Shown piece by piece: positions 41,947-48,799 of a DNA stretch of 64,000 nt. Position numbers and translations under genes: made by a program. Source of the stretch: Procambarus clarkii (Eukaryota; Arthropoda; Malacostraca; Decapoda; Cambaridae); assembly GCF_040958095.1 (NCBI RefSeq), contig NC_091199.1:32769768-32833767 (forward strand), written 5' to 3'. The notes below the pieces were generated by a model. It had not been told where the DNA came from and did not search any database. It worked only from the letters and a program-made list of their open reading frames with translations. Position 1 is the stretch's first letter, and each line of letters begins with the position of its first letter.

Positions 41947-43771
41947 CGCCACAACCAAAACTGCTCAACAGCCACATCAGGAGGAAAACAGCAGTGAAGG
42001 AACAAGTGATGAAACTAAGAAAAGGGGAGAACAGATACACAGAACGACAAAGAGGTGTGTGAAGAACTCAACAAGAGATTCCAGGAAGTCTTCACAATAG
42101 AACAAGGAGAGGTCCCTAGACTAAATGAGGAGGTAAAACGAGCAACCTTGGAGGAATTTTATCTCACTAGTGATGAGGTCAAAAGGAATCTGTTGGAGCT
42201 GAATGTGTCAAAGGCAGTTGAGGCTGACAGAATCTCACCGTGGGTTCTAAAAGAAGGTGCAGAAGAACTAAGTGTGCTACTATCTATAGTGTATAACAGG
42301 TCAATGGAAACGGGAGACCTTCCAGAAAACTGGAAGACAGCTAATGTAGTCCCAATTTACAAAAAGGGTGACAGGCAAGAGTCACTGAATTACAGGCCAG
42401 TTTCCCTAACTTGAATACCATGAAAGGTGATGGAGAAGATTATGAGGAAAAGGCTCGTAGAGCATCTGGAGGGAAACAGCTTTGTAACACACCACCAGCA
42501 TGGGTTCAAAGATGGTAAATCGTGCCTCACTGGCCTAATAGAATTAATTTTATGACCAAGCAACACAAATTAGGCAGGAAAGAGAAGGGTAGGGAGACTG
42601 CATTTTCTTGGACTGTCAGAAAGCCTTTGACACAGTACCTCACAAATGGCTGTTACAAAAGTTGGAGCAACAGGCAGAAGTAAAAGGTAAGGTGCTCCAG
42701 TGGAAAAGGAAGTATCTAAGCAATAGGAAACAGCGAGTAACGGTGATAGGAAGAGGCATCAGAGTGGCGATATGTCACCAGCGGGGTTCCACAGGGCTCT
42801 GTACTCGGACCCATCCTTTTTCAAGTATATATAAACGACCTTCCAGAGGGTATAGACTCATTCCTCTCAATGTTTGCTGATGATGCAAAAATTACGAGAA
42901 GAATCAAATCAGATGAAGATAGACAGAGACTACAGGACGACCTGGACAAACAGGAGGAATGGTCTAGAAAATGGCTGCTAAAGTTCAACTCAGGAAAGTG
43001 TAAAGTAATGAAATTAGGCGAAGGGAGAAAAAGGCTGAACACAAGGTACCTTCTGGGAGATGAAATCCTGCAAGAGTCAAATAGAGAGAAAGATCTGGGG
43101 GTCGATATCACACCGAATCTGTCCCCAGAGGCCCACATCAAAAGGATATTATCAGCGGCATATTGCTAGACTGGCCAATATAAGAACTGCCTTTAGAAAC
43201 TTGTGTAAGAAATCGTTCAGGACCCTGTACACCACTTATGTAAGACAAATCCTGGAGTATGTAGCTCCAGCCAGAAGTCCATACCTAGTTAAACACAAGA
43301 CGAACTTAGAGAAGATTCAGAGGTATGCCACTAGACTGGTCCCGGAACTGAGAGGAATGAACTATGAGGAAAGGCTAAAGGAGCTGAACCTCACAACCCT
43401 GGAAAACAGAAGTGTAAGGGGAGACATGATAACCACCTACAAAATTCTCAAGGGAATTGACAGGGTGGACAAAGACAAACTCTTTAGCACGGTTGGAACA
43501 CGAACAAGGGGACACAGGTGGAAATTAGTACCCAAATGAGCCACAGAGACGTTAGAAAGAATTTTTTCAGTGTCAAGGTAGTTAACAAATGGAATGCATT
43601 AAGTAGTGTTGTGGTGGAGGCTGACTCCATACACAGTTTCAAATGTAGATATGATAGAGCCCAGTAGGCTCAGGAATCTGTACACCAGTTGATTGACAGT
43701 TGAGAGGCGGGACCAAAGAGCCAAAGCTCAACCCCCACAAGCACAAATAGGTGAGTAAAAATAGGTGAGTA
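41947..43771 (+). mobile_element. CR1-like LINE copy B (5' truncated, frameshifted)
   Basis: It starts directly after (AC)n within the linker before the RT (LLNSHIRRKTAVKEQVMKLR). RT blocks include ISPWVLKEGAEELSVLLSIV, NWKTANVVPIYKKGDRQESL and NYRPVSLT followed by a stop (about 42413). Then come DCQKAFDTVPHKWLLQKLE, a broken SGVPQGS region, MFADDAKITRRIKSDEDRQR and the C-terminal TTYVRQILEYVA and VPELRGMNYEERLKEL. Several stops and frameshifts make it a pseudogene copy. The 3' tail (43741-43771) has two AGGTGAGTA motifs and runs straight into (AC)n. Confidence 0.9.
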
Positions 43772-44000
43772 CACACACACACACACACACACACACACAC
43801 ACACACACACACACACACACACACACACACACACACACACACACACACACACACACACACACACACACACACACACACACACACACACACGCTCACACAC
43901 ACACACACACACACACACACACACACACACACACACACACACACACACACACACACACACACACACACACACACACACACACACACACACACACACACAC
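43772..44000. repeat. (AC)n microsatellite, about 229 bp
   Basis: A nearly pure AC run with one interruption (GCTC near 43891). It lies exactly between the tail of LINE copy B and the truncated start of copy C. Its apparent His/Thr or Cys/Val frames are meaningless. Confidence 0.98.
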
Positions 44001-44925
44001 ATGGCTGGGCGGACTGCATTTTCTTGGATTGTCGGAAAGCCTTTGACACAGTACCGCATAAGAGGCTGGTACATAAGCTGGAGAGACAGGCACGTGTAGC
44101 TGGTAAGGTGCTCCAATGGATAAGGGAGTACCTAAGCAATAGGAAGCAGAGAGTTACGTGAGGGGTGAGACCTCCGATTGGCGTGAAGTCACCAGTGGAG
44201 TTCCACAGGGCTCTGTACTCGGTCTTATCTTGTTTCTGATATATGTAAATGATCTCCCGGAAGGTATCGATTCATTTCTCTCAATGTTTGCGGACGATGC
44301 TAAAATTATGAGAAGGATTAAAACAGAAGAGGACTGTTTGAGGCTTCAAGAAGACCTAGACAAGCTGAACGAATGGTCGAACAAATTGTTGTTAGAGTTT
44401 AACCCAACCAAATGTAATGTAATGAAGATATGTGTAGGGAGCAGGAGGCCAGATACAAGGTATCATCTGGGAGAGGAAATTCTTCAGGAGTCAGAGAAAG
44501 AAAAAGACTTAGGGGTTAATATCACGCCAGACCTGTCTCCTGCAGCACATATCAAGAGGATAACATCAGCAGCATATGCCAGGCTGGCCAACATACGAAC
44601 GGCATTCAGAAACTTGTGTAAAGAATCATTCAAAACTTTGTATACCACATATGTCAGGCCAATCCTGGAGTATGCAGCCCCAGCATGGAGTCCATATTTA
44701 GTCAAGGATAAGACTAAACTGGAAAAGGTTCAAAGGTTTGCCACCAGACTAGTACCCGAGCTGAGAGGTATGAACTACAAGGAGAGACTACGGGGAATTA
44801 AACCTCACTTCGCTGGAAGACAGAAGAGTTAGGGGGGACATGATCACATCATTCAAGATTCTGAAAGGGAATTGATAGGGTAGATAAAGACAGGCTATTT
44901 AACACAAGGGGCACACCTCACGTCA
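44001..44925 (+). mobile_element. CR1-like LINE copy C (truncated at both ends)
   Basis: It begins at GWADCIFLDCRKAFDTVPHK directly after (AC)n. A 1-bp loss (about 44158) shifts the frame in the RVTVRGE block. The frame 44158-44832 then contains TSDWREVTSGVPQGSVLG, MFADDAKIMRRIKTEED and the conserved thumb to VPELRGMNYKERLRG. It stops before the tail: at about 44915 it passes into a scrambled CACCTCACGTC segment and a (CT)n tract. It is very similar to copy D, so recent divergence or local duplication is likely. Confidence 0.9.
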
Positions 44926-44939
44926 CTGGGAGGAATTAA

Positions 44940-47294: not shown

Positions 47295-47396
47295 ACAAAC
47301 ACACACACACACACACACACACACACACACACACACACACACACACACACACACACACACACACACACACACACACACACACACACACACACACAT
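47295..47396. repeat. (AC)n microsatellite between copies D and E
   Basis: Pure AC run of about 100 bp joining the 3' tail of copy D to the truncated start of copy E. Confidence 0.97.
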
Positions 47397-48167
47397 AGTC
47401 CTTGGACCTATACTGTTTCTGGTATATGTAAATGATCTCCCAGAGGGTATAGATTCGTTCCACTCAATGTTTGCCGACGATGCAAAAATTATGAGGAGGA
47501 TTGAAACAGAGGATGATAGTAGGAGGCTACAAGATGACCTGGATAGACTGAGTGAATGGTCCAACAAATGGCTGTTGAAGTTCAACCCGAGTAAATGCAA
47601 AGTAATGAAACTAGGCAGTGAAAACAGGAGGCCAGGCACAGGATACAGAATAGGAGATGAAGTACTTAATGAAACAGACAGAGAGAAAGATCTAGGAGTT
47701 GATATCACACCAAACCTGTCTCCTGAAGCCCACATAAAGAGAATAACGTCTGCGGCATATGCGAGGCTGGCTAACATCAGAACGGCGTTCAGGAACCTGT
47801 GTAAGGAATCATTCAGAATCTTGTACACCACATATGTAACACCAATCCTGGAGTATGCGGCCCAAGCATGGAGCCCGTACCTTGTCAAGCACAAGACGAA
47901 GCTGGAAAAAGTTCAGAGGTATGCGACTGGACTAGTCCCAGAACTAAGAGGTATGAGTTACGAGGAATGGATGCGGGAAATGCACCTTACGACACTGGAA
48001 GACAGAAGATTAAGGTGAGACATGATCACTACCTACAAAATCTTCAAGGGAATTGACAGGATAAACACGGATAAATTATTCAACACTGGTGGTATGCGAA
48101 CAAGGGGACACAGGTAGAAACTGAGTACCCAAATTAGCCACAAGGACGTTAGAAGGAACTTTTTCAG
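47397..48167 (+). mobile_element. CR1-like LINE copy E (truncated at both ends)
   Basis: It starts at VLGPILFLVYVNDLPEGIDS directly after (AC)n. The frame 47397-48018 contains MFADDAKIMRRIETEDDSRR, WSNKWLLKFNPSKCKVMKLG, TDREKDLGVDITPNLS and VPELRGMSYEEWMREMHLTT. A premature TGA follows (after DRRLR). Non-coding homology continues to GAAGGAACTTTTTCAGAG at 48167, where unrelated sequence begins and the usual tail is missing. It is distinct from copies C and D by many substitutions. Confidence 0.9.
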
Positions 48168-48799
48168 AGTTTATATGCAAAAGACACAAACATATTTAAT
48201 AATGGTATATCCTTACAATACATGGTCGTTTAGTATTATGGAAAGGTCCCTAGCGGGCTCTAGATACCCTAAGCCTCATCGTCCCAAACGTGGAACCATA
48301 CACACAGCCGTCAACCCAGTGACACATATATTTACACCTTTAGGAAACCTGGACCTCTCCAAAACCTGTATAAAACCTCTCCAAAATCTGTATAACTACT
48401 CTACCCTATCTTGCAACCCTGTTTTTATACAAGGAAGGGCTTATCTGACTGTACGACCGGAGAAAACCCTTCAAATAGCAGGACCGGGTCGGCAGCGATA
48501 CACCTCCCCCTCCAGTCAAGATGGCGTCCACCTCTCTTGCGTCATCGCCCCTAAATACTCTATGCTTTACATTTGCAATTAAACCCATTATTGACTTTAT
48601 TTACCATATTCCCCACGCATGCTTTTAGATTGAGTCCATTTTTCCCTCACATAGTTAGACTATTCCAGTTCACATTATTCCTGACCATCTCCAGCTGAGA
48701 AGGTACTACTTTGCTGGGCGGAGTATTACTGGTAACTCGCGGCCTCCCAGAAACCAGCTGTAGATATTTTCTTATAAAAATTATCCACTGTGTGCACCA
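48168..48799. other. Unclassified insert between LINE copies E and F
   Basis: About 630 bp with no similarity to the LINE on either side. It contains a frame of 135 codons (48175-48582) without recognisable motifs. It replaces the 3' end of copy E and precedes the first recognisable sequence of copy F. It could be an LTR or other element, but I cannot show ends or a duplication. Confidence 0.4.

Follow-up and report, generated by a model that had tools for sequence, protein, structure and literature searches.

A CR1-like LINE of the crayfish Procambarus clarkii that probably targets (AC)n microsatellites, and a SINE that carries its tail

A stretch of 64,000 nucleotides from the crayfish Procambarus clarkii (assembly GCF_040958095.1; contig NC_091199.1, here C50, positions 32769768-32833767, forward strand), referred to below as the window, contains several copies of a non-long terminal repeat (non-LTR) retrotransposon, or long interspersed nuclear element (LINE), which is labelled CR1-like here and whose copies lie among tracts of (AC)n. 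Analysis of these copies and of their relatives in the rest of the genome makes it very likely that this high-copy LINE targets AC-rich tandem DNA, above all (AC)n, by target-primed reverse transcription with a primer on the GT strand. AC was found at both junctions of the element genome-wide and with a strand bias, a prior repeat surrounded some of the copies, there was no sign of local duplication, and copies on one contig were clustered on the same strand.

From these patterns we infer the position of the nick, priming from GT, a role for the fold at the 3' end of the RNA, and a preference set jointly by endonuclease and tail. An apurinic/apyrimidinic endonuclease-type (APE-type) enzyme would nick the GT strand within ...ACAC.../...GTGT..., and the freed 3' OH, ending in GT, would pair with the 3' end of the element RNA, ...GAGUAC(AC), and prime first-strand synthesis. 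An early stop of synthesis would produce 5' truncations at many points, and the complementary DNA would be joined to the AC strand remaining upstream, which would leave each copy with AC on both sides and oriented like the AC strand. The AC beside each copy would then be a new target, and later copies would join the row head to tail, all on one strand, to give arrangements such as B-(AC)n-C and D-(AC)n-E in the window. A class of tRNA-derived short interspersed nuclear elements (SINEs) that has the 3' end of the LINE is likewise followed by AC.

AC repeats at the two ends of the LINE

All genome-wide counts given here are of exact pattern matches in the window's own assembly (4.03 Gb, 2308 contigs); such matching misses diverged copies and counts segmental duplicates repeatedly. 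When a pattern contained a gap, every register was counted on one of the strands; comparisons were therefore confined to the other, for which the listed places imply one count per site. The 14-mer tail of the LINE was found 95,329 times (47,244 + 48,085 on the two strands) and the exact double tail, AACTAGGTGAGTACAACTAGGTGAGTAC, 21,055 times (10,445 + 10,610), as compared with 4 and 0 matches for the respective reversed controls. In a random sample of 20 stretches of 10 kb, in which 12,750 of 200,000 bases were masked as N, the LINE family covered 6,359 of the 187,250 unmasked bases when the window and sampled copies were used as queries.

At the 3' end, (AC)4 directly followed 32,206 of the 95,329 single tails (15,980 of the 47,244 on the forward strand), and a GT flank, GTGTGTGT, was found within 20 bp 3' of the tail for 303 of the 47,244 forward tails. 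The control, a SINE tail of a different kind (CTCAAGATAAC), was directly followed by (AC)4 at 29 of 120,100 places; this control is an 11-mer (reversed control 445 + 445), and the LINE tail is a 14-mer. A targeted sample was also taken from another contig of the assembly, C1, and consisted of 40 of the 53 double-tail places chosen without regard to AC among the first 100 listed (individual sampled loci are given L-numbers below). Within 54 bases of the tail end in these 40 loci there was AC in 31 and GT in one.

The 5' junction is the more discriminating of the two, since AC upstream of a truncated copy would not be expected from an RNA-borne tail. An internal site of the element, GGCTCAGGAAYCTGTACACC, was found at 36,969 + 38,101 places. 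Within 30 bp upstream of the 38,101 minus-strand sites, (AC)6 was present at 676 and (GT)6 at 17, and the listed sites with upstream AC included many different truncation points. The enrichment and strand bias that an earlier note on this DNA had proposed as a genome-wide check were thus found at both ends of the element. In addition, the 40 targeted loci together with the window and the 20 random stretches yielded 60 5' junctions, after removal of 7 that were near-identical and 25 that were cut by the end of a locus or by N. They were called from the ends of blastn matches, and some are internal breaks of old copies. (AC)4 was present within 40 bp at 26 of the 60 (4 of 12 in the window, 5 of 18 in the random stretches and 17 of 30 in the targeted loci) and (GT)4 at none, while random 40-mers from the 20 random stretches contained (AC)4 in 140 of 18,750 cases and (GT)4 in 137 of 18,750. 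Among 34 copies with a tail there was AC upstream of 17, downstream of 23 and on both sides of 15, and GT downstream of one; this set was less strictly deduplicated, with 62 junctions of which 28 had AC. In other words, the same-strand repeat on both sides that marks a microsatellite-targeting LINE was found in 15 of the 34.

A readable 5' junction is also what separates two ideas that can be confused, that LINEs seed microsatellites and that LINEs target them. If this LINE were a seeder, its RNA would bear or grow an (AC)n tail, for example by slippage on ...GAGTACAC, and would insert anywhere, with the AC as its own product. This would account for the AC at the 3' end and for the copies at L038, L048 and L052, which have AC at that side only, and two reports describe such seeders, CR1-L3 LINEs in snakes (PMC6050309) and RTE LINEs in moths (PMC2887409). 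However, seeding leaves unexplained the same-strand AC found upstream of copies truncated at many points, both in the genome-wide count and in the sampled junctions, and it leaves unexplained the presence of one satellite on both sides of a copy. Nor did (AC)n follow the terminal GAGTAC in the window copies that end at 12062, 52758 and 63902. Seeding by the tail as the sole cause is ruled out by the 5' junctions, and seeding as the overall explanation is considered unlikely.

The targeting interpretation predicts a repeat that was there before the LINE, and in 3 of 19 copies examined a single AC-rich compound repeat or satellite flanks the copy to the left and right, which indicates that in these cases the repeat was there first. 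An AAAGAC/(AC) compound repeat lies to the left and right of the copy at L042, a CCAACATAACC satellite to the left and right of that at L035, and one 34-bp satellite on both sides of copy A in the window. Over the 19 copies, 129 8-mers other than AC were common to the left and right flanks, as compared with a mean of 37.9 with shuffled partners, a value reached in 1 of 10,000 shuffles. The only insertion for which both flanks and an empty site could be read was at L051, where the copy is inserted into another, antisense one at CTAC-AC-TTGAA; relatives read CTACACTTGAA there, with a short ACAC. At L016 and L050 the 3' flank enters an antisense SINE at its AC tract, and the 5' flanks are AC beside other copies. 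A short ACAC may be sufficient as a target, and (AC)n would then be the largest source of such targets. Viewed from the side of the repeat, 10 of the 16 AC tracts of at least 20 bp in the random stretches were within 60 bp of a family copy on the same strand, which is relevant to users of AC markers in this lineage.

Several observations weigh against targeting of AC. No (AC)4 immediately followed 63,123 of the 95,329 exact tails, although 21,055 were followed by another tail unit, and 34 of the 60 sampled 5' junctions had no AC, some of these being internal breaks and not insertion ends. The AC at the 3' side alone of L038, L048 and L052 is what a tail-borne AC would give, and the copy at L070 has no AC-rich flank. 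GT flanks do occur, if rarely, at the 17 5' sites and 303 3' tails mentioned above. The flank-sharing permutation uses hand-chosen copies, and L042, L035 and copy A provide 106 of its 129 8-mers. A target-site duplication is unreadable inside (AC)n. Finally, five of the 16 AC tracts in the random stretches had no copy within 60 bp, and one was beside a copy on the opposite strand.

Identity of the element and of its SINE partner

The reading frame for reverse transcriptase (RT) in copy D is open over 632 residues and matches the Pfam family RVT_1 (E=3.2e-35). As expected for a non-LTR RT, its best relatives among solved structures were R2 and LINE-1 ORF2. A remnant of an endonuclease was found at L033, where the match to Exo_endo_phos_2 (E=7.5e-05, 23 bits) is below the Pfam cut-off of 27.4 and an SDH motif is present; the remnant had no match among solved structures. 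The motif reads SDH in L033 (7091-7495) and SDQ in copy F (window 48830-49100). A search of NCBIfam matched only group II intron and Drt3a RTs and gave no clade placement.

A CCHC motif after the RT is expected in the R1 clade, to which the microsatellite LINEs Mino and Waldo belong. Inspection of D's open frame by eye showed none, and there was no Pfam match to RNase H in the element. The C-terminal block presumably resembles that of CR1. The 3' end has tandem 14-bp units and a two-stem fold, and the provisional label CR1-like rests on this 3' end, on the fact that neither a CCHC nor an RNase H match was seen, and on the presumed C-terminal resemblance. By its sequence the element is a non-LTR retrotransposon, tentatively CR1-like. 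In amniote CR1, the 3' end is reported to have short tandem octamer units after a conserved hairpin (PMC4316615).

If the element were instead an R1-clade member of the Mino/Waldo type, AC targeting would already be known for such a LINE. Mino inserts into AC repeats and has been reported from a decapod, Penaeus monodon (PMC3124438), and the crayfish element has a putative remnant of an APE-type endonuclease. The likeness to Mino lies in this putative APE-type endonuclease and in insertion at AC dinucleotide DNA; the latter is a common behaviour, which alone is not membership. The features listed in the preceding paragraph, from the missing CCHC and RNase H to the C-terminal block and the short tandem units with a fold, argue against R1, and membership in that clade is judged improbable. 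In comparison with R1-clade LINEs, the crayfish element shows no CCHC or RNase H after the RT, has 14-bp tandem units at its end and has its tail in common with a SINE.

The tRNA-derived SINEs are alike in the body but end in either of two tails, one common with the AC-associated LINE and the other made of CTCAAGATAAC units (window 23815-24060; L015, L016, L017, L019 and L020). The association of the SINE with AC was judged from 3' flanks. A SINE-type tail, AACTAGGTGAATAC, was directly followed by (AC)4 at 5,697 of 26,277 places, and this tail was present in 2 of 42 collected 3' ends, both on the SINE with the 3' end of the LINE. Stringent LINE/SINE pairs have a common 3' end, and so do this LINE and this SINE: a tRNA-derived SINE carries both the 3' sequence and the fold of the LINE. 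What sets this pair apart is that the elements with the common tail also have AC 3' of it in common, whereas the sister SINE class with the other tail has no AC flank. The two SINE classes, alike in body but not in tail, amount to a tail swap performed by nature. A SINE-like stretch at L020 (300-690) has an internal GT tract of about 92 bp and runs into (AC)n at its 3' side, so that GT and AC flank a tail fragment.

The shared fold was analyzed in 30 of the 42 collected 3' ends, mainly near-identical ones having been dropped; both the SINE and two subfamilies of the LINE were represented. The fold has two stems that cross (GTTGAG/CTCAAC and GCGGG-type/CCCGC), and over 27 distinct 3' ends these were paired in 90.3% of cells. 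Five pairs were changed on both sides, a number reached in 6 of 500 shuffles, and there were nine such cells, which none of 500 shuffles reached. Further pair types were not unusually numerous (107 of 500 shuffles). The fold was proposed after the same sequences had been viewed, so the slide control favours it. Judged from this comparison, it fits a recognition element common to LINE and SINE. The crossing stems lie within the last 60 bases of the LINE subfamilies and of the SINE, and form a possible pseudoknot.

Two other known systems resemble the crayfish element in part. Togen, a NeSL-related element of fish that is (TG)n-specific (PMC4640811), has the same dinucleotide target; that lineage has a restriction-like endonuclease, in contrast to the Exo_endo_phos_2-like remnant below the Pfam cut-off found here. 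CR1-L3 of snakes, which seeds AATAG microsatellites, is likewise a CR1-like LINE with microsatellites associated with its 3' end; the adjacency described in PMC6050309 is at the 3' side, whereas the crayfish element has AC at its 5' junctions too. Among APE clades, Tx1 and R1 alone are said to hold site-specific LINEs in a 2026 paper (PMC13295347). The literature considered included a repeat survey of decapods (PMC10454600). Among the titles and beginnings of abstracts that the searches listed, with subscription journals mostly outside their coverage, there was no report of a CR1-type LINE with microsatellite targeting. AC-targeting LINEs as such are already known from Mino of the R1 clade, but AC targeting by a CR1-like LINE, together with a SINE that has its tail, seems to be new.

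On balance, we lean towards the view that a LINE of the CR1 group gained dinucleotide-microsatellite targeting independently of R1 and Tx1, that it grows as same-strand head-to-tail chains by way of fresh AC landing pads, and that the SINE which acquired its tail acquired its target, while, to judge from 3' flanks, the sister SINE with the other tail did not. If a CR1-like lineage with about 10^5 exact tail units does prefer (AC)n, the prevailing picture of LINE targeting needs widening.

Orientation and origin of neighboring copies

Direct reading of the junctions in the window bore out the layout described in the earlier note, in which LINE copies B to E, each on the plus strand, are interspersed with (AC)n. 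An imperfect (AC)n at 41903-41946 (+) is presumably the 5' part of the site into which copy B inserted. Copy B is a 5'-truncated LINE at 41947 (or 41953)-43770 (+) that ends with two 14-bp tail units and runs into (AC)n. This tract, earlier given as 229 bp, is 231 bp long with one break (43771-44001, +) and extends from the tail of B to the start of copy C. Copy C (44003-44916, +) is truncated at the GWADC block and has no 3' tail, ending in rearranged sequence and a CT-rich tract. From 44953 to 45288 (+) the CT-rich tract is followed by a CACACGCG/(AC)n compound tract, of which the pure (AC)n at 45250-45288 abuts copy D; the AC tract before B is also compound. Copy D (45289-47292, +), truncated at NWYNR, contains the open RT frame and ends with two perfect 14-bp tail units, after which (AC)n at 47293-47395 (+) extends to the start of copy E. 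Copy E (47396-48170, +) is truncated at VLGPIL, has no 3' end and joins unrelated DNA. As C and E are without a 3' tail, AC on both sides can be seen only for B and D. The differing truncation points (before the RT, and at GWADC, NWYNR and VLGPIL) were visible in the reading frames. The plus strand was found in 10 of 10 blastn matches to D, and all 17 of the AC/GT runs of at least 12 bp in the window were AC.

The earlier note had named tandem duplication as the alternative, because C and D are very similar. Under that explanation, B to E would stem from a single LINE-(AC)n unit that was duplicated segmentally or in tandem, or AC-AC recombination would have shuffled them. C is 97.05% identical to D, and the family does undergo segmental duplication; but C is no closer to D than to the copy at L073 on another contig (97.16%). 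Copy E is 95.2% identical to L033, again on another contig, and 78.0% to D, and B is 79.1% identical to D and, over more than 500 bp, does not exceed 83.6% identity with any of the sampled copies. None of B to E is closer to the others than to copies on other contigs, and no shared non-repeat flanks were present in the junctions read, which upholds the statement that this is not one segmental duplication. The truncation points differ, the borders of C are internal to D, and the AC pattern recurs genome-wide. Duplication of this kind is highly improbable, and tandem duplication as the cause of the B-E layout is ruled out by the identities to unlinked copies.

If the AC strand dictates orientation, nested copies should agree in strand. 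This was examined on C1 with 98 of the 100 double-tail places listed, the two dropped being the same site in another register. Neighbors were on the same strand in 37 of 38 cases at less than 20 kb, in 15 of 21 at 20-100 kb and in 15 of 38 at more than 100 kb. Leaving out the cluster at 2.65-3.04 Mb, which is duplicated, gave 20 of 21 at less than 20 kb and 13 of 36 at more than 100 kb. Local duplication may add to this clustering. Within that cluster, the stretches at 2.656-2.724 Mb and 2.963-3.029 Mb have near-identical tail spacings about 307 kb apart, all on one strand, and apparently represent a segmental duplication rich in the LINE family. An assembly artefact, in which AC tracts (long ones being hard to assemble) break reads and unrelated LINE pieces are joined, is scarcely credible given the very many cases, the strong strand bias, and two copies at L019 with AC tracts on either side, beyond which no family match was obtained.

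Other features of the window

No long (AC)n flanks copies A, F or G at the junctions read. Copy A (9664-12062, +) is interrupted at about 10127-11395, and its tail leads directly into the AC-rich 34-bp satellite that is also present on its 5' side. Copy F (48830-51011, +) keeps the end of the endonuclease, with a tail piece at 52592-52758 that ends in GAGTAC and no (AC)n. Copy G (61641-63902, +), in three matching pieces, belongs to a second subfamily, is 66.7% identical to D and has a tail ending in ...GAGTACTAGGTGAGTACACATG. The start of a further 3' fragment, copy H (63926-64000, +), is cut by the end of the window, so that its 3' side is outside. A tRNA-derived SINE of the control class, with the other tail (CTCAAGATAAC CTCAAGATA) and without AC flanks, lies at 23815-24060 (+; ends approximate).

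A scan of viral contigs with 16 bases of the tail matched five contigs, for which chance was deemed likely. Much of the window is filled with long minisatellite arrays of up to 162 copies, at 5434-9152, 12068-14396, 31445-32816 and 34404-39741, with units of 153/52, 34, 25 and 33 bp. A satellite of units of about 64-70 bp with internal CACACA blocks is present at 39754-40408 and again, about 19 kb away, at 58856-59441.

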